Origin: Rehaibacterium terrae
GTDB taxonomy: Bacteria; Pseudomonadota; Gammaproteobacteria; Xanthomonadales; Xanthomonadaceae
NCBI RefSeq assembly: GCF_014202935.1
Contig: NZ_JACHHX010000001.1
Span: 186,001-250,000, forward strand
Length of the DNA: 64,000 bases
Direction: 5' to 3'
The translations under genes were made by a program, and so were the position numbers. Positions 21,513 to 61,593 of this stretch are shown here, in pieces. The notes under the pieces were generated by a model. That model saw only the letters and a program-made list of their open reading frames with translations, searched no databases and was not told the DNA's origin. The stretch's first letter is position 1. The number at the start of each line of letters is the position of its first letter.

Positions 21513-21858
21513 CTGGAGGCTCCGGTGACGGCCGACTGCGCTCGGAAAGGTTGATGTTTCGAGCGAAGTTCCGGACGTAACTGATTGATGGAATTTGAGC
21601 CGCTGCCCTGTCCGGGTGCCCCGGCCGGCCTGACGGCGCGCGTATTGTAAAGCAATCGCTCCGGAAAGCCCGGCCGGCCGGCCGGTGCATGCACGGGCTG
21701 GGTCGGCGCGATCGGTCCGGAGCGCAGGCCATGGCCCCGGTCACCGGCCGCGTTCCGGCGCAGGCGCGCCCAGCCTGCCGGGACGGGCCTGCCCTTCACG
21801 CGGATTTCTCCGGTTCCGATGCCCAATCGCGGCTGTTCCCGACTCGCCGGGGTCCGGG
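21513..21858. other. 346-nt divergent intergenic region
   Basis: It holds the promoters of leucine dehydrogenase (leftward) and of the sigma/cupin gene (rightward). I see a GC-rich inverted stretch (GGCCGGCC repeats at 21628-21683, around GTATTGTAAAGCAATCGC) but no ORF with convincing coding character and no clear operator. The open frame upstream of 21859 in phase with the sigma gene lacks coding style. Confidence 0.5.
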
Positions 21859-22953
21859 ATGAGCCGATTGCCAGTCTCGCCGCCTCCTGCCGCCGCCATC
21901 GATGAAAGCACCCGGCTCGTCCATCTGGTCGCGCGGCTGTGCGAACGCGACCAGGCGGCGTTGGGCGAGCTCTACGACCGCACCGTCGACCGTGTCTACG
22001 GTACCGCCATCCGCGTGCTGGGCCGGCCCGAGGACGCCGAGGAGGTCGTCTGCGAGGTCTATCAGCAGGTCTGGGAGGGGGCCGGACACTACGACCCTGG
22101 ACGCGGCGGCGTGCTGGCCTGGCTGCTGCGCATCGCCTGGAGCCGCGCGGTCGACCGGCTGCGCCGCGAGCGGGCGCACCGCAGCCGTCTGGTGGCGCAT
22201 CCGCAGGACGCGCTGGATACGTATACGCTGTGTGAAGAAAATGATCCCGCCAGCCGCCTCATGGCGGTCCTGGACAGCCGTTCGGCCGTCGCCCATGCCC
22301 TGGAGACGCTCAGCGTGGAGCAGCGGCGCATGCTGGCGCTCGCCTTCTTCGAGGATCTGAGCCATCCGGAGATCGCCGCGCGCACCGGGGTCGCCCTGGG
22401 TACGGTGAAATCGCATATCCGGCGCGGTCTGCAGGCCTTGCGCCGTGCGCTCGGCGAGGGGGCGGCCATGACTGATCGTCGTCGCCTCGATCCCGACCTG
22501 GCCGCCCGTCTGGCCGAGAGCATGACGCCGGTGACGCCGGACCCGGCGCGCCGCCTGGCCATGCGCGAACGCATCCTTGCCGATGCCGCGGCCCCCGCCA
22601 CCCGGGTCTTGCGGGCGGACGAAGGCGAATGGCGCGAGTTCGTGCACGGCATCCGCATCAAGACCCTGCGCCGCGACGAGACCGCCGGCACCGAGACCAG
22701 CCTGTGGCGGCTGGCGCCCGGCGCCCGTGTGCCGCCGCATAGCCACCGCCACGAGGAGGAGTGTCTGGTGCTGGAGGGCTCCATCGTCCACGACGGCGTG
22801 GAGTACTTCGCCGGTGACTATCTGCTGGCCCCGGCAGGGGCCAGGCACAAACCTTTCGTCGCCCCGCAAGGCGCGCTGTTGCTGATCCGTTCGGAGCTGG
22901 TGCCGCGGTTGGGCTGGCTGACCCGCCTGGCCCTGCGCTTGATCGGACGATGA
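21859..22953 (+). CDS. ECF sigma factor fused to ChrR-like cupin (putative self-contained sigma/anti-sigma)
   Basis: One uninterrupted 364-codon frame. Residues 20-108 form sigma region 2 (EDAEEVVCEVYQQVWE, AWLLRIAWSRAVDRLR); 145-198 form sigma region 4 with the helix-turn-helix LSHPEIAARTGVALGTVKSH. After a linker (200-250), residues 255-345 form a cupin with PPHSHRHEEECLVLEGS, like the C-terminal domain of ChrR anti-sigma factors. The Zn-binding anti-sigma domain (HxxxH-x2-C-x2-C) that normally precedes it is not seen. ATG 22468 (Met204), with GAGGGGG six nt upstream, is a plausible internal start, so the cupin might also be made separately. It precedes four exported-protein genes and may control them. 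Start chosen at ATG 21859. Confidence 0.85.
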   Translation: MSRLPVSPPPAAAIDESTRLVHLVARLCERDQAALGELYDRTVDRVYGTAIRVLGRPEDAEEVVCEVYQQVWEGAGHYDPGRGGVLAWLLRIAWSRAVDRLRRERAHRSRLVAHPQDALDTYTLCEENDPASRLMAVLDSRSAVAHALETLSVEQRRMLALAFFEDLSHPEIAARTGVALGTVKSHIRRGLQALRRALGEGAAMTDRRRLDPDLAARLAESMTPVTPDPARRLAMRERILADAAAPATRVLRADEGEWREFVHGIRIKTLRRDETAGTETSLWRLAPGARVPPHSHRHEEECLVLEGSIVHDGVEYFAGDYLLAPAGARHKPFVAPQGALLLIRSELVPRLGWLTRLALRLIGR

Positions 22954-23004
22954 TCAGCTTGGGTGCAGTGTTCCGCCCCACCATCTCCATCGGAGGATAC
23001 CGCC

Positions 23005-23487
23005 ATGACTCGTACTGCGATCCATTGCCTGGGACTGGCCCTGCTGTTGTGCAGCGCGACGGCGACGGCCCGGCAGGCCCGTGAGGCCCCCGAGGTCGGG
23101 CGGATCTTCCAGCCCACCGCGGAGAATCTCGGCGAGGCAGAGGTCGAAGCCGTGCGCCGGCAGCTGGCCGCCCAGCGGACCGATGCGCCGGCGCTGTTCC
23201 TCAACGGCGTCCTCGTCGACGCCCGCGGCATGACCCTCTACACCTACAGCCGCGACCGCCCCAACGTCAGCACCTGCTTCCGCGTCTGCGAGAGGCTCTG
23301 GCCGATCTTCGCCGCCGGCCTCGACGACGAGCCGCAGGGCGAGTTCGGGATCATCGAGCGCATGGACGGCAGCCTGCAGTGGACTTGGCGCGGGCAGCCG
23401 CTCTACTACTGGGTCCGTGACCGCAACCCCGGCGACATCACCGGGGACGGCGTCAACGACGTCTGGCACGCGGTGCGTTCCGACTGA
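23005..23487 (+). CDS. Exported COG4315-type protein with two Yx(FWY)xxD motifs
   Basis: A 160-residue secreted protein. A signal peptide (about 1-22, cleavage near TATA-RQA) is followed by two copies of the secreted-repeat motif: YTYSRD (79-84) and YYWVRD (134-139). Two cysteines form C-x3-C (91-95) between them. This matches a family of exported proteins of unknown function seen beside redox and stress genes. The ribosome site GGAGG is perfect, fixing ATG 23005. It begins 51 nt after the sigma/cupin stop, so it is probably in the same operon or the sigma factor's first target. Confidence 0.85.
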   Translation: MTRTAIHCLGLALLLCSATATARQAREAPEVGRIFQPTAENLGEAEVEAVRRQLAAQRTDAPALFLNGVLVDARGMTLYTYSRDRPNVSTCFRVCERLWPIFAAGLDDEPQGEFGIIERMDGSLQWTWRGQPLYYWVRDRNPGDITGDGVNDVWHAVRSD

Positions 23488-23653
23488 CGCGCGCAGGCCC
23501 TGCACCGGCCACGGGCGAGGGCGTCCGCGACCGCCATCTCCCGAAGCGCATCCGGGCTCCGCACTAGACACGTAGCAGCCGGTTGAAGCCCGGCGACGGC
23601 TCCCGCAGCGGGAGCGGCCGCGGTTTCCATCGGCTTCTTCGAGGAGACAGACC

Positions 23654-24217
23654 ATGAAAACCTCCCTCTGGACAGCGTGCTCCGCAGTCGCCGCGGTCGC
23701 TGCGTTCGGGCTGGCCGCCCCGGTCTCGGCCGGTCACGAGAACATCGTGCTCGAGGCCAGCCTGAGCGGGCGCGCGGAGGTCGCCAGCGGCAGCCGGGAC
23801 AACCGCATCGTCGGCGACCCGCGCGGTCGCGGCGAGGCCTACGTGTTCGGGATCGACGGCGACAGCACGACGATCTGTTACGTCCTGCTGGTCGAGCGGA
23901 TCGGCGAGCTGGACCTGCCCCCGGGCAACGGCCGCCAGGCGCACATCCATCGCGGCCGACCGGGCCAGAACGGACCGGTGGTGGTCAATCTGGCCTGGCC
24001 ACAGGACGGCCGCGCGGCCGACTGCATCGCCGAGGACCGCATCCTGCCCAACGGGGCCCCTGCGTTCGCACGCGATCCCATGACCGGCGCGCTGCGTGCC
24101 ACCGCCGTCGAGATCCTCATGCACCCGGAGGAGTTCTATATCAACGTGCACAACCAGGAGTATCCCGCGGGTGCGGTGCGCGGCCAGCTGAAGGACACGC
24201 TCGATCACGGCCATTGA
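23654..24217 (+). CDS. Exported CHRD domain protein
   Basis: A 187-residue protein with a signal peptide (about 1-26, cleavage after VSAG/ SAG-HEN) and one CHRD domain (about 30-182). The N-terminal VLEASLSGRAEV, the internal RQAHIHRGRPGQNGPVVVNL and the C-terminal FYINVHNQEYPAGAVRGQL are the hallmarks of CHRD, a domain first noted in chordin. Bacterial members are extracytoplasmic and of unknown function. GAGGAG lies 8 nt before the ATG. A 166-nt spacer separates it from the preceding gene and it may have its own promoter. Confidence 0.88.
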   Translation: MKTSLWTACSAVAAVAAFGLAAPVSAGHENIVLEASLSGRAEVASGSRDNRIVGDPRGRGEAYVFGIDGDSTTICYVLLVERIGELDLPPGNGRQAHIHRGRPGQNGPVVVNLAWPQDGRAADCIAEDRILPNGAPAFARDPMTGALRATAVEILMHPEEFYINVHNQEYPAGAVRGQLKDTLDHGH

Positions 24218-24365
24218 AGGTCCCGGGCTGCGTGTCGGGCGGTGTATCCACGCCGGTCGCCGGCGAGCCGCGACTGCTGCCCGGACGCCGGTGCCGGTGG
24301 GATGGCCGTCGGAAAGGGTGCTCCGGTCCGGCTGCATCCGCGTTCCTTGGCTGTTGCGTAAGAGA

Positions 24366-24390
24366 GGCGGGAGACCGAGCGTCTCCCGCC
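24366..24390 (+). promoter_or_regulatory. Perfect hairpin upstream of the DUF3034 gene
   Basis: A 10-bp perfect stem GGCGGGAGAC / GTCTCCCGCC with 5-nt loop, ending 11 nt before the GAGAGGGGG ribosome site of the next gene. It has no T tract, so it is more likely a processing, stability or attenuation element than a terminator. The rest of the 201-nt gap shows nothing recognisable. Confidence 0.45.
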
Positions 24391-24418
24391 AGTGTCCGAA
24401 TTCGAGAGGGGGTACTCC

Positions 24419-25318
24419 ATGCAAGCCATGTACAGGCGTCCGGGCCACGCGCGCGTCGTGTTCGCCCTGACACTCATGCTCGCCGGAAGCGCTGCGCTGG
24501 CCCAGGACAGCGGCCGCGGCAGCAGCGGCAAACTCTTGCTCACCGGTGGCGTAAGCCAAGTGGAGGGTGCGGCCGGAGGTGGTCTCACGCCCTGGGCCGT
24601 GATCGGCGGGTACGGCACCCGCGACCAGTTCGGCGCGAATGCTTTCTATACCCGGGTGGATACGGGCGACTACGCCATGGACAGCCAGGGCGTGCTGCTG
24701 GGTCTGTTCGATCGCGTCGAGGTCAGCCTTTCCCGACAGAAGTTCGACACCAGGCAAATCGGTGCAGCCCTCGGCCTGGGGCGAGGCTTCACCTTCACCC
24801 AGGACACGCTCGGTCTGAAGCTTCGCCTGTTCGGTGATGCTGTTCTGGAACAGGACAGCTGGGTGCCGCAGGTGGCCGTCGGCGTGCAGCGCAAGCGCAA
24901 CGACCAGCCGGCGGTGCTCGCCTTCGTCGGTGCGCAGAGCCATCGCGGCAGTGACTTCTACGTGTCCGCGACCAAGCTCTATCTCGCCCAGAGCCTGCTG
25001 CTCAACGGTACCGTGCGTTTCACCAAGGCCAATCAGTTCGGAATCCTCGGCTTTGGTGGTGACCGGCGCAACGGCTACCGGCCGCAGTTCGAGGGCTCCG
25101 CCGCCTGGCTGCTCAACCGTCACCTCGCCATCGGCGCCGAGTACCGGATGAAGCCGGACAATCTCGGTATCGCCCGCGAGGACGACGCCTGGGATGCGTT
25201 CGTGGCCTGGGCTCCGAACAAGCACCTCTCGCTGACCCTTGCCTACGTCGATCTCGGCAACATCGTCATCGCAGACAACCAGCGTGGCTGGTACGCCTCG
25301 CTGCAGGTCGGCTTCTGA
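24419..25318 (+). CDS. DUF3034 family outer-membrane-like protein
   Basis: A 299-residue exported protein; the signal peptide ends near ALA (residue 28). The mature start GKLLLTGGVSQVEGAAGGGL and repeated amphipathic strands (for example QVAVGVQRKR, KLYLAQSLLLNGTVRF), ending in YASLQVGF with a terminal Phe, fit a beta-barrel in the outer membrane. I recognise this as DUF3034-like; function unknown. Start at ATG 24419 is set by GAGAGGGGG 8 nt before it; upstream codons in frame lack coding style. It is 17 nt from the truncated haemoglobin gene, so the two are co-transcribed. Confidence 0.82.
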   Translation: MQAMYRRPGHARVVFALTLMLAGSAALAQDSGRGSSGKLLLTGGVSQVEGAAGGGLTPWAVIGGYGTRDQFGANAFYTRVDTGDYAMDSQGVLLGLFDRVEVSLSRQKFDTRQIGAALGLGRGFTFTQDTLGLKLRLFGDAVLEQDSWVPQVAVGVQRKRNDQPAVLAFVGAQSHRGSDFYVSATKLYLAQSLLLNGTVRFTKANQFGILGFGGDRRNGYRPQFEGSAAWLLNRHLAIGAEYRMKPDNLGIAREDDAWDAFVAWAPNKHLSLTLAYVDLGNIVIADNQRGWYASLQVGF

Positions 25319-25335
25319 ACCCAAGGAGACATGCC

Positions 25336-25794
25336 ATGTTCCGACTCCCGACCAAGCTCGGCCTGTTCCTCGGGCTGGCCCTGGCACTGGTCCAACCGGC
25401 CCAGGCGCAGATGGACCCGGCGCCGGCCGACCCCACATTGCGCCCCGTTCTCGATGAGTTCGGCGGTGTGGCCGGCCTGACCGCACTGATGGACGACTTC
25501 ATGACGATCCTGCTCGACGATCCGCGCATGCGGCCGTTCTTCGAAAACGCCGACCAGGTGCGCATCAAGCGTCAGCTGGTCGAGCAGTTCTGCGTGATCC
25601 TCGGCGGCGATTGCACCTACAGCGGGCGTGACATGCGCAGCTCGCATGCCGGCCTGGGCATCACCCGTGCCGACTTCAACGCGCTGGTCGAGGACCTGCA
25701 GATTGCGATGGATCGGCGCGGCATCCCGTTCCGAGCCCAGAACAAGCTGCTGGCCAAGCTCGCCCCCATGCATCGCGAGATCGTCACCGAATAG
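25336..25794 (+). CDS. Exported group I truncated haemoglobin
   Basis: A 152-residue protein with a signal peptide (1-24, cleavage after AQA) and a complete two-over-two globin. Residues 35-150 include EFGGVAGLTALMDDFM, FCVILGGDCTYSGRDM, and the proximal haem ligand His104 in RSSHAGLGI. Group I (TrHbN) proteins are mostly cytoplasmic NO dioxygenases or O2 binders; an exported one would act in the periplasm or outer-membrane space. AAGGAG lies 8 nt before the ATG. Last gene of the exported cluster after the sigma/cupin gene; its pairing with DUF3034 suggests a joint extracytoplasmic role. Confidence 0.93.
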   Translation: MFRLPTKLGLFLGLALALVQPAQAQMDPAPADPTLRPVLDEFGGVAGLTALMDDFMTILLDDPRMRPFFENADQVRIKRQLVEQFCVILGGDCTYSGRDMRSSHAGLGITRADFNALVEDLQIAMDRRGIPFRAQNKLLAKLAPMHREIVTE

Positions 25795-25980: not shown

Positions 25981-28900
25981 ATGAGCATTCCCGCCAGCCA
26001 CGTTCCCGCCGCCGAGCCCCGACCGGAGGCCACGCCGCTGCGCTTCGTCACCGCCGCCAGCCTGTTCGACGGCCACGATGCCGCCATCAACATCATGCGG
26101 CGGCTGATCCAGGCGCAGGGGGCGGAGGTGATCCACCTCGGCCACAACCGCTCGGTGGAGGACGTGGTGCGCGCCGCGCTGCAGGAGGACGCCGACGCCA
26201 TCGCCGTGTCCAGCTACCAGGGCGGCCACGTCGAGTACTTCAAGTACATGGTGGACATGCTGCGCGAACGTGGTGCCGGCCACATCCGTGTGTTCGGCGG
26301 TGGTGGCGGCACCATCACGCCGGAAGAGATCCGCGAGCTTCAGGCCTACGGCGTCGAGCGCATCTACCACCCCAATGACGGCATGCACATGGGGCTGGTG
26401 GCGATGATCGAGGATGTGGTGCGGCGTGCTGCGCAGGCCCGGGACCAGGGGCCGGGGATCCAGGACCCGGAAAAGCTCGCCACTCCCGACATCGACGACG
26501 AGATCGGCATCGGCCGCATGCTCAGTGCGATCGAGGATGGCCTGTTCAGCGAGACCGAGCTCGCCGGCCTGCGCAAGCAATGGGCCGCCGGCCCTTCCGG
26601 CTCCCGATTCCCGATTTCCCATTTCCGGGCCACCACTCCCGTCATCGGCATCACCGGCACCGGCGGCGCCGGCAAATCGTCCGTCACCGACGAACTGCTC
26701 AACCGCTTCCTGCAGCACTTTCCCGAAATGCGCATCGCGGTGCTGGCCGTGGACCCGACCCGCCGCCGCACCGGCGGCGCCCTGCTGGGCGACCGCATCC
26801 GCATGAATTCGCTGCGCTCCCGGCGCGTGTTCATGCGTTCGATGGCCACCCGTCGCCAGCACGTGGCCACCAGCGCGGTGCTCAAGGACTGCATCGCCTT
26901 CATGAAGGGCATCGGCTACGACCTGGTGATCGTCGAGACCGCCGGCATCGGCCAGAGCGACTCGGAGATCGTCGATCTGGTCGATTTTCCGATGTACGTG
27001 ATGACCAGCGACTACGGCGCCGCCAGCCAGCTCGAGAAGATCGACATGCTCGATTACGCCGAGCTGGTGGTGCTCAACAAATACGACAAGCGCGGTGCGG
27101 AAGACGCGTTGCGCGACGTGCGCAAGCAGTGGAAGCGCAACCGCGCCGCCTTCAAGCTGGCCGACGAGGACGTGCCGGTCTATCCGACCATCGCCAGCCA
27201 GTTCAATGACCCCGGCGTGACCTGGATGTTCGTCAACCTGTGCCGGCTGCTGCGCGAGAAGCTCGGCCTCGGGGCCGCCGCCCCCGCCGTGGCAGGGAAG
27301 GGTGGGGATGGTGTCGCCGCCACCCGTTGCGACTTCAACCCGCAGGTCGATACCTCGCTCAAGGAACCCCGCGCCACCGTCCTCATCCCCGGCCAGCGCA
27401 TCCGCTACCTGGCCGAGATCGCCGAACAGGGCCGCGGTATCAACGCCGAGATCGCCCGCCAGGCCGAGATCGCCAACCGTGCCCAGGCCTACTGGCAGAG
27501 CCTGCACGATCTCGGCGATCCGCGCCTGCCCGCAGCCCTGGACCTGTATGCCGCCGAGGACCTGCTCCCGCAGCATGGGACGACGCAGGAAGCTTCGGCC
27601 GTGTCCGGGGACGTGGACGGGGACGTGGACGGGGTCGTGGTCGACCGCTCGCTGCTCACCCTGCGTCAGCGTTACCAGGACGCCGTGCAGTCGCTCTCGT
27701 CCGAGGCGCTCAAGCTGCTGCGCGAGTGGCCGGCGCGGCTCAAGGCCATCACCGACGAGGTCAACGAGTACAAGGTCCGCGACAAGACCATCCGCGTCGA
27801 GAACTACCGCGAGTCGCTCAGCCACCAGAAGATCCCCAAGATCGCCGCGCCCACCTACCGGAGCTGGGGCGAGCTGCTGACCTTCCTGCAGAAGGAAAAC
27901 CTGCCCGGCCACTACCCCTACACCGGCGGCGTGTACCCCTACCGGCGCAGCGGCGAAGACCCGATCCGCATGTTCGCCGGCGAGGGCACGCCCGAGCGCA
28001 CCAACCGCCGCTTCCATTACCTCAGTCTCGGCCAGCCGGCCGCGCGCCTGTCCACCGCCTTCGACTCGGTCACCCTGTACGGCGAAGATCCGGCCGAGCG
28101 CCCCGACATCTACGGCAAGATCGGCAATTCCGGCGTCAGCATCGCCACGCTGGACGACATGAAGAAGCTCTATTCCGGCTTCGACCTGTGCGCGCCGACC
28201 ACCTCGGTGTCGATGACCATCAACGGCCCGGCGCCGATCATCCTGGCGATGTTCATGAACACCGCCATCGACCAGCAGGTCGAGAAGTACCTGCGCGCCG
28301 ACCAGAGCCGCTGGGACGCCGCCCACGAGAAGATCGAGAAGTTCTTCGAGGGGCGCGAGCGCCCGGTCTACGCCGGCATGCTGCCCGAGGGCAACGACGG
28401 CCTCGGCCTCGGCCTGCTCGGCGTCACCGGCGACCAGCTCGTCGAGCCCGAGGTATACGCCCGCATCAAGGCCGAAACCCTCGCCACCGTGCGCGGCACC
28501 GTCCAGGCCGACATCCTCAAGGAGGACCAGGCCCAGAACACCTGCATCTTCAGCACCGAATTCGCCCTGCGCATGATGGGCGACATCCAGCAGTACTTCG
28601 TCGACCGCAAGGTGCGCAACTTCTACTCGGTGTCGATCTCCGGTTACCACATCGCCGAGGCCGGCGCGAACCCGATCAGCCAGCTCGCCTTCACCCTGTC
28701 CAACGGCTTCACCATCGTCGAGTACTACCTCGCCCGGGGCATGCACATCGACGACTTCGCGCCGAACCTGAGCTTCTTCTTCTCGAACGGCATGGACCCG
28801 GAGTACACCGTCATCGGCCGCGTCGCCCGCCGCATCTGGGCCCGCGCCATGCGCGAGCGCTACGGCGCCAGCCCGCGCAGCCAGATGATGAAGTACCACA

Positions 28901-29640
28901 TCCAGACGTCCGGCCGCTCCCTGCACGCGCAGGAGATCCAGTTCAACGACATCCGCACCACGCTGCAGGCGCTGTACGCCCTGTTCGACAACTGCAACAG
29001 CCTGCACACCAACGCCTACGACGAAGCCATCACCACGCCTACCGAAGAGAGCGTGCGCCGCGCCGTCGCCATCCAGATGATCATCAACAAGGAGCTGGGG
29101 CTGAACTTCTGCGAGAACCCCTGGCAGGGCAGCTTCATCGTCGACAAGCTCACCGACATCGTCGAAGAGGCCGTGTACAAGGAGTTCGAGGCCATCTCCG
29201 AGCGTGGCGGCGTGCTCGGCGCCATGGACACCATGTACCAGCGCGGCAAGATCCAGGAAGAGAGCCTCTACTACGAGCAGAAGAAACACGACGGCAGCCT
29301 GCCGCTGATCGGCGTCAACACCTTCCTGCCCAAGGAACACGCCGGTGACATCGTCACTGAAATCGAACTGATCCGCTCCACGCCGGAAGAAAAGGCCCAG
29401 CAGATCCACAACGTCCGCGCCTTCCAGCAGGCCCGCAACGCCGTCCGGCTTCCTCCCCCTCACGGCGAGGGACGGGATGATGCCGCTTCCGTGAGCGATC
29501 CCCTGCGCCATCTGCAGTCCACCGCCCGCGAGCGCAGAAACGTGTTCGAGGCGTTGATGGAGGCGGTGAAGACCCACAGCCTCGGCCAGATCAGCCACGC
29601 CCTCTACGAAGTCGGCGGCGAGTACCGGCGGAACATGTAG
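25981..29640 (+). CDS. icmF: Fused isobutyryl-CoA mutase (IcmF) with repeat-derived inserts
   Basis: A 1219-residue adenosylcobalamin enzyme interconverting isobutyryl-CoA and butyryl-CoA (family members also use isovaleryl/pivalyl-CoA). Order: B12-binding domain (20-150; DGHDAAINI, His32), MeaI-type G-protein chaperone (about 220-425; P-loop [28 protein letters not shown]), then the mutase TIM barrel (about 545-1150, [12 protein letters not shown]). Segments at about 200-219, 434-447 and 1155-1171 are low-complexity and match dispersed DNA repeats found elsewhere in this window; a fourth (about 540-550) is a GDVDGDVDG tandem. They fall in linkers or surface positions, so the enzyme may still work, but it is longer than usual. 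Start MSIPASHVP chosen at ATG 25981. Confidence 0.94.
26598..26632. repeat. GATTCCC repeat inside icmF
   Basis: The coding strand has TCCCGATTCCCGATTTCCCA, the same repeat family as the inverted arm at 11384-11408. It encodes SRFPISHF between the B12 domain and the G domain, read in frame without a stop. Confidence 0.75.
27285..27316. repeat. Palindromic-element fragment inside icmF (second site)
   Basis: GGCAGGGAAGGGTGGGGATG matches the reverse complement of the element flank at 14357-14397 (shared GGTGGGGATGGTGT). It encodes [11 protein letters not shown] at the junction between the G domain and the mutase part. Confidence 0.6.
29446..29490. repeat. Palindromic-element fragment inside icmF (third site)
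   Basis: CTTCCTCCCCCTCACGGCGA followed by GGGACGGGATG is a diverged copy of the palindromic element whose intact form is at 14460-14480. It encodes [11 protein letters not shown] near the C-terminus of the mutase domain. Confidence 0.65.
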
Positions 29641-57072: not shown

Positions 57073-57435
57073 CGGCGGGCGCATGCTACCCAGTCGCGGA
57101 AAGGGGTGTCCATGATGCCGATCAAATCTTGCCGGCCGGCCGGCCGGCCGGCCGGCGCGGCGGGCCGGTTGCCGGGGGCGGTCGCGCTCCGCATCCACGC
57201 ATGCAAGCCAAGGGCCGTGTCACGGGGCCGCCGGCACGTTCAGGTTTCTGTCTGCGCCGCCGGCATCCGCATGAGGCCGTCTGAACGTATGTGCAATCAG
57301 TCTTGTCCGTGGCGGTCAAACACGGTAAATGTCGGATTCCCGGAACGGCCCGAAACCCTTCTCACGCAGCCGCAAGGACGAACGGCAGCCACGCTGCCGT
57401 GGCCACGCTACCGGCCCATCAGGAGAACGCCCAAC
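57073..57435. other. 363-nt divergent spacer with GGCC tetranucleotide array
   Basis: It lies between ccmA (leftward) and the subtilase gene (rightward) and must contain both promoters. At 57131-57156 there are about six tandem GGCC units, a self-complementary run that could expand or contract. A small hairpin GGCAGCCACGCTGCC lies at 57382-57396 in the leader of the protease gene. I see no ORF with coding style in it, although a long frame in phase with the protease stays open because of base composition. Confidence 0.55.
57131..57156. repeat. Tandem GGCC tetranucleotide repeat
   Basis: A run of about six GGCC/CCGG units, perfectly self-complementary, within the ccmA/protease divergent promoter region. 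It is non-coding as annotated here. Any role in phase variation is untested. Confidence 0.75.
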
Positions 57436-60400
57436 ATGACGCCCCCCGCCATGCCCATCCTCGCCCGCGCCATCGCCGGCGTCCTCGGCATCGCCGCCTT
57501 CGCCGTGCCGGTGGCCGGCGCCAAGGAGCACGGCAGCCAGGGCCGCGCCATCTACATCGTCCAGTTCGAGGAGCCGGCCCTGGCCAGCTACACCGGCCCG
57601 GACCAGCTGGACAAGCGCGCCCCGCGCCTGAGCGCGACCAGCCCGGCGGTGACCGGCGCGCGCATGCTCGACGTGAAGACGCCGGAAAGCCAGGGGTATC
57701 TGGCGTTCCTGCGCGACCGCCGCGAGGCGCGCCTGTCGGAGGCCGAGGCGCGGCTCGGGCGCACGCTGCGGCCGACCCATGTCTACGATGTCGTGTTCAA
57801 TGGCGTGGCGCTGGAGCTGGAGCCGCACGAGGCCGAGCGGCTGGCCCAGCTGCCAGGTGTCAGGCAGGTAGAGCGCGAGCAAATCGAACGGCTGCACACC
57901 GATGCCGGTCCGGGCTGGATCCGCGCCGACCAGGTCTGGAGCGGTGCGGCCGGCGTGACCACCCGCGGCGAGGGCGTCATCGTCGGTGTTGTCGACTCCG
58001 GCATCCACGCAAGCCACCCTTCATTCGCCGCCACCAGCCCGCTGGACGGCTACGTGCACGTCAACCCGAAAGGTGGCTTCCTTGGCCTTTGTGCCACCGG
58101 ACAGGCGACCTGCAACAACAAGCTCATCGGCATCTACAACTTCACCAGCGAGGGCAGCGACGGTTCCGACGTCAGCGGCCACGGCACCCATGTCGCCGGC
58201 ACGGTGCTCGGCAATCCGCTCAATGTCACCGTGTCCGGGGTCGCCCGCACGATCTCCGGCGTGGCGCCGCGCGCCAACCTGATCAGCTACAAGGCCTGCA
58301 CCAACGAGGGCTCGTCCGGTTCCTGCCCGGGCAGTGCCACACTGGCGGCCCTCAACCAGGCGGCCACCGACCAGGTCCATGTGGTCAACTATTCGATCGG
58401 CGGCAGCGCAAACAACCCCTGGAGCAACTCCAGCGCCAACGCGATGCGCGGCTTGCGCGACGCCGGCGTGGTGGTGGTGGTCGCCGCCGGCAACGACGGG
58501 CCCGGCGCGGGCACGGTCACCAGCCCCGGCAACGCCCCCTGGGTGCTGACGGTGGCGGCGGCCAGCCATACCCGCATCATCGGCAACCAGCTCTTCCTGA
58601 GCGGTGGCGCCACGCCGCCGCCCAATGGCGGGGTGCTGATCGGCGCCAGCCAGACCGGCGGCAGCGGCACCTTCCCGCTGGTGCACGCCGAGCCGCGGCT
58701 GTGCGCCGAGGGCGCGGACACCAGCCTCAACGGCAACAACATGCCTTCGGCGTGGGGGGCGACGACCTACAGCAACCGCATGGTGCTGTGCGACCGCGGC
58801 ATCTATGCGCGCGTGGACAAGAGCCGCAATGTGAAGAATGCCGGCGGCGCGGCGATGGTGCTGCTGAACCAGATCTCCGACGGCGCCAGCGTGGTGGCGG
58901 ATGCCCACACGATCCCCTCCACCCACCTCCGTTACGCCGACGCCCAGGCGCTCCTGCAGTGGCTGTCCACCGGCAGCGGCCACACCGGGCGGCTCGATGC
59001 CGCCACGGTGCGCGATGCGGCCGGCTTCGCCGATGTGCTGGCGGGCTTCAGTGGCCGTGGTCCGGCCAAGCCGGACAACATCGCCGAGGTACTCAAGCCG
59101 AACGTGACGGCGCCTGGGGTCAGTATCCTGGCCGCCGACCGCACCGGGAGTGGTGTGGTCTTCAAGTCGGGTACCTCGATGGCCACCCCGCACGTGGCCG
59201 GTGCGGCTGCCCTGTTGCGAGCCGCCAACCCGACTTGGCGTGCCAACGAGATCATCTCCGCGCTCACGACCACTGCACGCAATTCGGTCAAGTTGACCGA
59301 CGGCACGACCTTGGCCGCGCCGTTCGACCAGGGCGCCGGCAGTATCGACGTGTCGCGCGCCATCCGGGCGGCGCTGTCCTTCAACGTGACCTCTGCCGAG
59401 TTCGTCAATGCCAATCCGGGTGCGGGGGGCACGCCACGCGACCTCAACCTGCCGGCTCTGGTGCATGCCTCCTGTCTGGAAGCATGCGCACTGACCCGAC
59501 GGGTGACCGACCTCGCCGGCGGCGGGCAGTGGCAGGTGCAGTTCGAATCCTTGCCGGCCGGAGTCGTCGCCAGTGCCAGTCCCGCCAGCTTCACGCTCAC
59601 GGCCGGGGCCACGCAGTCGGTGAACTTCTCCTTCGATGTCTCCGACCCGTCGCTGGCGGGGCGCTGGATCCATGGCACGGTGCGCTTCAAGCGCATCACC
59701 AACGACGGTCGGCCGGATGCGACCATTCCGGTCTCGCTCCATGTCCTGCCGGGACAGGTGCCGCCACCGATCGAGCTTCAGGTCGATAGCGATGCCGGCT
59801 TCGTCGACTACCCACTGTCGGGGCTGGTGGCGTTGCCTGATGCCCGTTTCCGCGGCACGCCGCTGGCCGCGCCCCTCATTACCAACTTCAACCTGCGCCA
59901 GGATTCGGCACGCAACAATGTCTACGACGACCTGACCGATGGCGTTGCCTACGTCACCCTGACCCTGCCGCCGAGCGCCGATGGCCAGCCGGTGTCCTGG
60001 AAGGTCGTGTTCGAGGCCACCGGCCCGGCCAGCGTCGACTACGATCTCTACGTCGGCATCGACGAGAACGGCAATAGCCGTCCGGATGCCAGCGAGGAGC
60101 GCTGCCGTTCGACCGATCCCAAGGGCCAGGCGCGCGAGCGCTGCGAGCTGGATGTCCAGCACCCGGGGGGCTCTGAGAACCTCGTGGTCTGGGCCCTGGT
60201 GCAGAACTGGGAGTCGAGCTCGCCTGGGGCTGTCGACACCATCCGGCTCGAAGGCTATGCCGTGCCACGATCCCCCTTGGGGGCAGACCTGCGGGGCCTG
60301 ACCGCGACCGGTCCCGGACAGGTCGCCCGCAACGCCCCATTCAACCTGCGTCTGAGCTGGAACGACCCGGGCATGCTGCCTGGGGATGTCCGCTATGGCC

Positions 60401-61593
60401 TGGTCCAGATCTCGGCGACCCGTGACTTCGTCACCATGGAGGTGCCGGTGAGGATCAGCCGTGTTGCCGGTACGTCAGCGGCACGGGCGTTGAAGGATGG
60501 GGAGACACTGCGTCTGCGCCTGTCAGGCAATGCCGCTCACGAACGCATTTACTTCGAGGTGCCGCCGAATGCCCAAGAGGTGGCTTTCACGCTGGAGAAC
60601 GCATTCGGCGTCGACCTGTACTTGGCGCATGCCAGCGAGGCATCCTCACCGCAGATCAATCTCGCGCCGCCGCGCAACCAGGCCCAGACCGTGCTCAGTG
60701 GGGCGCATGACAGCCGCAGCATCATTCTCAGCGGGAACCACCTGAAGCCCGGGCGCTGGTACCTGACTCCGGTAAACACTCGCGCCACCCCCAGCACCGA
60801 GTTCGCCCTCCGTGCCCGTGTGCTGCAGAGTGGTCCCCGTCCTGACCTGCGCTCCGGCCAGTACTACAACTGGCGTCGCTCCGGCCACGGCATCTTCCTG
60901 GACTATGCCGGCAGCCAGTGGCTGATGCTCTGGTACACCTACCTGCAGGACGGCACGCCGACCTGGTACCTGGCGGTGGCGCCGGCGCTGGCCGGGAACG
61001 GCGGCGTCTGGAACGCCGACCTGCTGCGCATCGTCTGGAACGGCAACCAGACCGCCTCCACCCCGGTCGGCCGGGTGCAGATCATCCCCACCGGGACCAG
61101 CACGCTCGACTTCCACTACCAGCTCGACGGCCAGAGCGGTTACGAGCCGATGGATCGCCTGGGCGGCGGGCAGGGCTGCCCGGTCTTCAACGGGCAGGCT
61201 CTCGACGTCACCGGCCACTGGTACTCGCCGGACAAATCGGGCTTCGGTTACAACGTGCAGCTGGAGCCGCCCGGCGTGATCCCGAACGGGTTGGAGATCC
61301 TCACCGCCTACCTGTACGACGGCCAGGGCTTCCCGCGCTGGCTGATCGGTGCCCGCGACTATGATGCCGGCAACGCCGAGGCGAGCATCGCCATGGAACA
61401 GCTCACCGGCTTCTGCCCGCTGTGCACCTACCAGCCCACCACCAGCCGCATCGTCGGGCAGGGCGTGCGCCGCTACGGCACCAATCGCGTCGAGCGGCTG
61501 GGCATCACCGCGGAATTCGCTCCGCCGCTGTCCGGCCTCTGGGTGGAGTCGCTGCCGACGGCGGTGCTGTCGGAGCCCAAGCTCTGCCAGTAA
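57436..61593 (+). CDS. Secreted S8 family serine peptidase (subtilase) with duplicated C-terminal domain
   Basis: A 1385-residue secreted subtilase. Signal peptide 1-28 (cleavage after VAGA), I9-type propeptide (about 38-155), then the S8 catalytic domain. The triad is Asp187 (VVDSGIHASH), His249 (GHGTHVAG) and Ser581 (SGTSMATPHVAG). A PA-domain insertion (about 380-500) splits the catalytic domain, as in large bacterial subtilases. Residues about 645-1000 are beta-rich, about 1010-1135 resemble a pre-peptidase C-terminal domain (FGVDLYLAHAS), and about 1140-1385 hold two related aromatic-rich units with TYLQDGTPTWYL and AYLYDGQGFPRWL. AGGAGA lies upstream of ATG 57436. Likely exported by the Sec pathway and type II secretion. 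Confidence 0.93.
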   Translation: MTPPAMPILARAIAGVLGIAAFAVPVAGAKEHGSQGRAIYIVQFEEPALASYTGPDQLDKRAPRLSATSPAVTGARMLDVKTPESQGYLAFLRDRREARLSEAEARLGRTLRPTHVYDVVFNGVALELEPHEAERLAQLPGVRQVEREQIERLHTDAGPGWIRADQVWSGAAGVTTRGEGVIVGVVDSGIHASHPSFAATSPLDGYVHVNPKGGFLGLCATGQATCNNKLIGIYNFTSEGSDGSDVSGHGTHVAGTVLGNPLNVTVSGVARTISGVAPRANLISYKACTNEGSSGSCPGSATLAALNQAATDQVHVVNYSIGGSANNPWSNSSANAMRGLRDAGVVVVVAAGNDGPGAGTVTSPGNAPWVLTVAAASHTRIIGNQLFLSGGATPPPNGGVLIGASQTGGSGTFPLVHAEPRLCAEGADTSLNGNNMPSAWGATTYSNRMVLCDRGIYARVDKSRNVKNAGGAAMVLLNQISDGASVVADAHTIPSTHLRYADAQALLQWLSTGSGHTGRLDAATVRDAAGFADVLAGFSGRGPAKPDNIAEVLKPNVTAPGVSILAADRTGSGVVFKSGTSMATPHVAGAAALLRAANPTWRANEIISALTTTARNSVKLTDGTTLAAPFDQGAGSIDVSRAIRAALSFNVTSAEFVNANPGAGGTPRDLNLPALVHASCLEACALTRRVTDLAGGGQWQVQFESLPAGVVASASPASFTLTAGATQSVNFSFDVSDPSLAGRWIHGTVRFKRITNDGRPDATIPVSLHVLPGQVPPPIELQVDSDAGFVDYPLSGLVALPDARFRGTPLAAPLITNFNLRQDSARNNVYDDLTDGVAYVTLTLPPSADGQPVSWKVVFEATGPASVDYDLYVGIDENGNSRPDASEERCRSTDPKGQARERCELDVQHPGGSENLVVWALVQNWESSSPGAVDTIRLEGYAVPRSPLGADLRGLTATGPGQVARNAPFNLRLSWNDPGMLPGDVRYGLVQISATRDFVTMEVPVRISRVAGTSAARALKDGETLRLRLSGNAAHERIYFEVPPNAQEVAFTLENAFGVDLYLAHASEASSPQINLAPPRNQAQTVLSGAHDSRSIILSGNHLKPGRWYLTPVNTRATPSTEFALRARVLQSGPRPDLRSGQYYNWRRSGHGIFLDYAGSQWLMLWYTYLQDGTPTWYLAVAPALAGNGGVWNADLLRIVWNGNQTASTPVGRVQIIPTGTSTLDFHYQLDGQSGYEPMDRLGGGQGCPVFNGQALDVTGHWYSPDKSGFGYNVQLEPPGVIPNGLEILTAYLYDGQGFPRWLIGARDYDAGNAEASIAMEQLTGFCPLCTYQPTTSRIVGQGVRRYGTNRVERLGITAEFAPPLSGLWVESLPTAVLSEPKLCQ

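Follow-up and report, generated by a model that had tools for sequence, protein, structure and literature searches.

Among the closest described relatives of the system reported here are the ECF11 RpoE–ChrR pairs of Rhodobacter, Pseudomonas, and Shewanella, in which an extracytoplasmic function (ECF) sigma factor and its partner respond to singlet oxygen or organic peroxide. Photolyase, cyclopropane synthase, and an amine oxidase belong to the ECF11 core regulon. The ECF11 promoter, TGATCC-N16-CGTA, was mapped in Pseudomonas syringae by chromatin immunoprecipitation and in Shewanella from transcription start sites (PMC5507510, PMC4336711), and the metal ligands of the ChrR cupin-like domain (CLD) are H141, H143, E147, and H177 (PMC6852236). 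A related locus was analyzed in a 64,000-nt stretch of the Rehaibacterium terrae genome (assembly GCF_014202935.1, contig NZ_JACHHX010000001.1, positions 186,001–250,000, forward strand), hereafter the window. Here an ECF sigma gene joined to a ChrR-type cupin is followed by genes for a Lipoprotein_15 protein (Lip15), a CHRD-domain protein, a DUF3034 protein, and a group 1 truncated haemoglobin (TrHb). The locus is read as an envelope-stress module under its own ECF sigma factor, with a probability of about 0.6.

Gene calls, Pfam, and N-termini confirm the four consecutive plus-strand genes for exported proteins that a first-pass annotation, made from the letters alone, had placed after the sigma/cupin gene. 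All four products have a signal-peptide-like N-terminus by inspection, and the Pfam scores are far above cut-off (Cupin_7, 72 bits; Sigma70_r2, 56; Lipoprotein_15, 90; CHRD, 69; DUF3034, 361; Bac_globin, 50). Each family was searched in 119 related genomes, and 60 fetched stretches were combined with 80 named GTDB loci. Genes were called, labelled by profiles made for this analysis, and dereplicated at 95% identity (100 loci) or 80% (68 loci), giving loci from Alpha-, Beta-, and Gammaproteobacteria. The conserved core of the module is the DUF3034–TrHb pair, the TrHb being the next gene after DUF3034 in 97 of 100 loci (65 of 68 at 80% dereplication). Lip15 lies immediately upstream of DUF3034 in 19/100 loci. 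An ECF sigma gene lies within four genes upstream in 19/100, a share that is no unbiased rate because the query set included sigma-linked copies. ECF genes account for 20 of 355 near upstream genes versus 2 of 449 distant ones (p = 7e-6), and for 12 of 242 versus 2 of 316 at 80% dereplication (p = 0.0016). CHRD occurs at a single locus of the 100, the window's own; it was ruled out as a core component and is not a conserved member.

Conservation of gene order, on which the earlier proposal had been made to depend, was found in other genera. Arenimonas malthae, A. metalli, A. oryziterrae, and an Arenimonas sp. have sigma, cupin, Lip15, DUF3034, and TrHb genes in this order with mostly tiny gaps, and the order in Aquimonas is identical. 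Further relatives have sigma-cupin-DUF3034-TrHb or sigma-cupin-cupredoxin-CACHE-DUF3034-TrHb. The equivalent slot holds RskA-type ECF genes in Dyella, Rhodanobacter, Oleiagrimonas, a Burkholderiales MAG, and Nitrospirillum (with the RskA partner beside the sigma gene in loci L104, L119, L120, and L161), a zinc-finger ChrR ECF in Rhodanobacter, and a double-cupin ECF in Zoogloea. Different ECF modules thus came to lie at the DUF3034–TrHb unit. In the window, the module is flanked upstream by IVD and leucine dehydrogenase genes on the minus strand and downstream by an isobutyryl-CoA-mutase-like fusion (25981–29640), and it therefore occupies a discrete slot that relatives use too.

A predicted promoter element links the sigma gene to its neighbours. 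Counting words in the upstream regions of 27 cupin-linked sigma genes brought out GGATGCA/TGCATCC (9 versus 0.8 expected), and TGCATCC-N16/17-CGTA was derived by eye from the sites holding this word. With the motif-source loci excluded, 29 of 141 DUF3034, Lip15, CHRD, or cupredoxin genes have the element in the 150 nt before them, versus 7 of 758 others (p = 1e-18). With all loci kept and sigma genes counted in, it precedes 40/190 targets versus 17/767 others, and plausible genes (fatty-acid desaturase operons, Ferritin_2, DUF4331) account for most of the 17. Among spacers of 8–25 nt tested, the element occurs only at 16 (18 sites) and 17 (11 sites); about 500 letter-shuffled controls gave at most 1. 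Spacer length goes with the type of sigma factor encoded alongside: it is 17 nt at 10/10 sites beside single-cupin sigma genes, the window included, and 16 nt at 15/15 sites beside RskA, zinc-ChrR, and double-cupin types, counts in which related species are non-independent points. This covariation ties the sigma factor to the promoter and, more than any other evidence, supports the reading of these sites by the adjacent sigma. Three loci with spacer 17 have no adjacent sigma gene; in two (L100 of genome G014 and L090 of G110), a single-cupin sigma is encoded on another contig, and the contig of the third (L101) starts within the cupin gene. In the sigma tree, the window protein falls in a supported clade (97/95) made up almost wholly of single-cupin ECFs and separate from the zinc-ChrR and RskA sigmas. 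Its identification as SigK was rejected (NCBIfam score 151 bits, cut-off 226).

The first-pass annotation had suggested a search for a shared promoter upstream of 23005, 23654, and 24419, and the latter two positions have a predicted one, GCATCC-N17-CGTA in both cases. At the genome rate of 18 sites per 5.8 Mb of strand, the 367 nt of the two window gaps should hold about 0.001 site; two were found, both N17. A further match, inside the sigma gene (22197–22223), was put down to protein coding: in relatives, a conserved HP...AY motif of the protein is spelled by the same codons. The words CTTCAC/TTCACG precede 10 of 27 sigma genes versus 1.6 expected (the window, near 21797, and loci L054, L075, L094, L096, L097, and L102 among them) and were set aside as a promoter box for want of a fitting partner box. 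One more GCATCC-N17-CGTA site lies at 57263–57289, 146 nt before a 1385-residue ORF (57436–61593) with a signal-peptide-like start; it could be chance or an extra target. Strong stem-loops follow the promoter closely in many predicted DUF3034 leaders (the window and L055, L101, L103, L109, L111, and L118) and are perhaps RNA-stabilizing or regulatory elements. An Rfam search of the window module gave no match.

Several points weigh against a module governed in this way. No exact match to the element was found before the Lip15 gene at 23005, the third position named in the earlier proposal, or before the window sigma gene. Genome-wide, R. terrae has 18 matches versus 20 for controls; with no excess, position alone makes the two window sites convincing, and the motif alone cannot define a regulon in this genome. 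Other ECFs of the genome could read the element. Among DUF3034 upstream regions that have no adjacent ECF, 73 of 84 are without the element, and no site was found at a second DUF3034–TrHb copy of R. terrae; DUF3034–TrHb therefore also works outside this control. The locus counts lack phylogenetic independence, and the loci were picked by similarity to a set with sigma-linked copies. The ChrR regulon of Stenotrophomonas maltophilia, a member of the same order, was of help against superoxide and not singlet oxygen (PMC11832516). On the sequence evidence, control of the DUF3034–TrHb unit by the sigma factor is very likely.

Table 1 Features of the sigma-cupin locus (window positions)
Feature	Position	Strand	Basis and details
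ECF sigma (regions 2 and 4) fused in frame to ChrR-type cupin (CLD)	21859–22953	+	Pfam Sigma70_r2, r4_2, Cupin_7; alternative start 21868
Sigma/cupin junction GGCGAGGGGGCGGCCATGACTGATCGTCGT	22453–22482	+	Compared with relatives' layout; one-G insertion simulated
Exported Lipoprotein_15 (YxFWYxxD) protein, two repeats, conserved CXXXC	23005–23487	+	Pfam, alignment, AlphaFold2 (AF2)
Predicted ECF promoter GCATCC-N17-CGTA of CHRD gene	23548–23574	+	79 nt before ATG
Exported CHRD-domain protein, lineage-specific module member	23654–24217	+	Pfam; 1/100 loci
Predicted ECF promoter TGCATCC-N17-CGTA of DUF3034–TrHb unit	24334–24360	+	GCATCC box from 24334, CGTA 24357–24360; 58 nt before ATG
Strong hairpin GGCGGGAGACCGAGCGTCTCCCGCC in predicted 5′ leader of DUF3034	24366–24390	+	Leader RNA fold −26.3 kcal/mol
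DUF3034 protein, predicted ~12-stranded outer-membrane beta-barrel	24419–25318	+	Pfam, AF2, Foldseek
Exported group 1 truncated haemoglobin (Bac_globin)	25336–25794	+	Pfam, alignment to 1IDR, 41- and 111-sequence alignments

The window cupin keeps the H, H, E, and H ligands of ChrR (HSHRHEE...ARH, spacing 0, 2, 6, 36), and these conserved ligands suggest that the cupin would act as the sensor, as first proposed. A zinc anti-sigma domain or its residues (His, His, Cys, Cys) were found neither in the window cupin nor in single-cupin relatives. Sigma and cupin form one ORF in the window; all relatives seen have two ORFs, which overlap or adjoin, mostly with a 4–8 nt overlap. Adding one G to the GGGGG run before the cupin ATG in simulation restores the relatives' layout, the sigma ending ...GEGGGHD* inside ATGACTGA, and the fusion may therefore be a one-base deletion or a sequencing indel. 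An assembly or sequencing indel, with two overlapping genes in the cell, is slightly favoured. The arrangement and end (HD*) then equal those of relative L054, and a Shine-Dalgarno-like GAGGGGG stands ahead of the cupin ATG; on the other side, one-base-loss fusions also occur naturally, and the assembly is 99.97% complete with 0.2% contamination, a rating at which small indels are still possible. No other conclusion rests on the fusion.

Side observations concern the sigma genes of relatives. The window's sigma type occurs without DUF3034 in loci L077–L080, L083, L084, L085, and L088, often beside DUF4331 genes, several of which have the promoter, forming a second target family. In Nitrospirillum (L161 and L162), DUF3034–TrHb is flanked by two different ECF modules, of the RskA and cupin types; a small cupredoxin accompanies them, and L161 has a fasciclin gene. 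Arenimonas loci L094–L097 and L102 share a conserved intergenic block, bounded by leucine dehydrogenase and the sigma gene, that contains two hairpins and a terminator (TTGGCgGTTTTGTCTCTCCCCGGAgaACCGCCAG...AACCCTAGAGCAGGGTT...GTCGCCCTTTTTTT). It looks like an undescribed small RNA and has no match in Rfam.

The DUF3034 protein matches its profile (PF11231) over the full length (positions 1–255 of 255). Its AF2 model has about 12 long strands (pLDDT 86, pTM 0.81), and Foldseek matched it to FapF, OmpG, and NanC with E-values down to 2.5e-8 and best-match TM-scores of only about 0.42–0.53. The confident model and these matches point to a predicted outer-membrane beta-barrel. The confident Lip15 model (pLDDT 88) had no fold match in the PDB, so the fold gives no function. 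The window TrHb aligns gap-free to Mycobacterium tuberculosis HbN (1IDR) over 112 residues and has Met at B10, Ile at E7, Leu at E11, His at F8, and a CX6C pair (C86 and C93). In 111 TrHb relatives, F8 His is invariant, and CD1 Phe (110), E11 Leu (107), and the CX6C pair (106) are nearly so; Tyr B10 is found in 13. The cysteine pair suits an oxidizing compartment and may form a disulphide. Export of the TrHb had been flagged as an oddity; by a crude rule, 106/111 have a signal peptide or lipobox at the start, several others look like miscalled starts, and export is the norm for TrHbs linked to DUF3034.

DUF3034–TrHb also has neighbours of another kind. A cupredoxin gene lies within four genes in 54/100 loci and a CACHE protein gene in 57/100, both commoner than an ECF gene. 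The pair may thus serve mainly in redox or gas sensing with this blue-copper protein and a CACHE-HAMP(-GGDEF-EAL) receptor that feeds cyclic-di-GMP signalling, the ECF module being an extra input adopted in some lineages. The cupredoxin keeps N, D, H, G, C, H, and M in 67/67 copies and could be an electron donor, and the receptor has CACHE, HAMP, GGDEF, and EAL domains. The R. terrae genome itself (34 contigs, 2.89 Mb) has this layout at its second DUF3034–TrHb copy, on contig 3, where the pair stands behind cupredoxin and CACHE-HAMP-GGDEF-EAL genes and the haemoglobin is lipoprotein-like. Both genes are absent at the window locus, and some cupredoxin genes carry the ECF promoter, so that the sensing unit and ECF control merge. 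A principal role in sensing is a possibility that these data leave the less probable. Some CACHE5 proteins encoded right after the cupredoxin gene (for example, L043:4973–6100 and L061:5920–6903) seem to end past the membrane/HAMP-like part, without an output domain.

The nature of the stress is suggested by the promoter and by loci in related taxa. The window element, GCATCC-N17-CGTA, is a close variant of the ECF11 promoter. In Frateuria, Rhodanobacter, and relatives (Rhodanobacteraceae), Lip15-DUF3034-TrHb adjoins photolyase or a cluster of desaturase, amine oxidase, DUF1365, CMAS, DUF2878, DUF1295, a further cyclopropane-synthase-like gene, and lipocalin, and the same promoter precedes several of these genes. 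A response to a reactive species such as NO or singlet oxygen had been proposed: the ECF11-like promoter and the related loci among ECF11 core genes agree with a reactive species, and nothing points specifically to nitric oxide (NO), because most DUF3034-linked TrHbs have neither Tyr B10 nor Gln E11. An oxidative signal is plausible, and a role in an oxidative envelope response is probable.

Mycobacterial HbN is known for NO dioxygenation, and its Tyr B10 and Gln E11 stabilize bound O2. HbN proteins are the nearest solved relatives of the window TrHb, which would allow a periplasmic NO dioxygenase within a nitrosative-stress response. The distal site is apolar in most of these TrHbs, unlike the O2-stabilizing pocket of HbN, with Tyr B10 in only 13/111 and E11 Leu in 107/111, and the promoter and neighbour genes point to an ECF11 oxidative response. 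A nitrosative-stress module is therefore unlikely, and NO dioxygenation by the window TrHb is disfavoured. That the genes for the four exported proteins are neighbours merely by chance, with no control in common, as the gaps between Lip15, CHRD, and DUF3034 (166 and 201 nt) and the uniqueness of CHRD to this locus might suggest, is very improbable given the order conserved in other genera and the two matched promoters with identical spacers.

The mechanism proposed for the sigma-controlled envelope module builds on its gene content, order, and conservation, the promoter element and its covariation, the barrel model, and the pocket residues. The sigma factor would be held in check by the ChrR-like cupin, in cis if the fusion is real and otherwise by a co-translated partner. 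Release, as in ChrR, would follow from a change at the metal site of the cupin or in a reactive species, derived from lipid or oxygen, that it binds. Freed sigma would recognize TGCATCC/CGCATCC-N17-CGTA promoters and drive CHRD and the DUF3034–TrHb unit, with Lip15, which starts 51 nt past the sigma gene, co-transcribed with it. The products would be exported, DUF3034 forming a barrel in the outer membrane. A disulphide-stabilized haemoglobin would act together with Lip15 in the periplasm or at the outer membrane, most likely by redox reactions with peroxides or further reactive oxygen products close to that membrane. The barrel and haemoglobin genes beside the sigma gene bear the promoter signature of this kind of switch, and this suggests an envelope defence against reactive oxygen that is new to description. 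More tentatively, the locus may represent a new ECF control class, in which a cupin without an anti-sigma domain (here fused, as a one-protein switch) and a 17-nt-spaced promoter command a barrel together with an exported haemoglobin whose chemistry would be new and whose distal side is apolar and possibly coordinated by Met. If true, it would be an unrecognized haem-based outer-membrane defence against photo-oxidative or peroxide damage. The near-obligatory barrel–haemoglobin pairing and a promoter spacer that tracks sigma type turn these genes into a testable regulon. In the literature searched, outside which lay the main ECF classification and singlet-oxygen regulon papers, no function is described for DUF3034, which two papers name only in passing, and no paper joins truncated haemoglobin with ChrR or singlet oxygen, or joins the module parts.

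The locus can be compared with several known systems. ECF41 and other fused sigmas have a C-terminal sensory domain in one chain, as the window protein does if the fusion is real; the domain is SnoaL in ECF41 and a ChrR cupin here, and the window's relatives keep the cupin as a separate protein. SigK–RskA systems (ECF18/19), which go with secreted fasciclin-type proteins, include the best NCBIfam match of the window sigma, below cut-off, and the equivalent loci of other taxa include some with RskA-type partners or a fasciclin gene, whereas the window locus has a cupin and neither RskA nor fasciclin. The window TrHb shares Bac_globin, CD1 Phe, and F8 His with group 1 TrHbs (HbN and GlbN) and differs in its export, its lack of Tyr B10 and Gln E11, its tie to DUF3034, and the CX6C pair of its kin. 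Cable bacteria have periplasmic truncated haemoglobin domains that are thought to do redox chemistry (PMC11976967); those are fused to pentahaem cytochromes, whereas here the TrHb is free or lipid-anchored beside an outer-membrane barrel. The likeness to ECF11 RpoE–ChrR lies in the pairing of an ECF sigma with a ChrR-type cupin, in four ligands in register, and in the promoter halves ATCC...CGTA at a 16–17 nt spacer. The window system differs in its −35 box (TGCATCC), its spacer of 17 rather than 16, the clade of its sigma, and its targets DUF3034, TrHb, CHRD, and Lip15. Its partner is without the zinc anti-sigma domain, a difference that bears on the ECF11 question of what the ChrR cupin domain senses.

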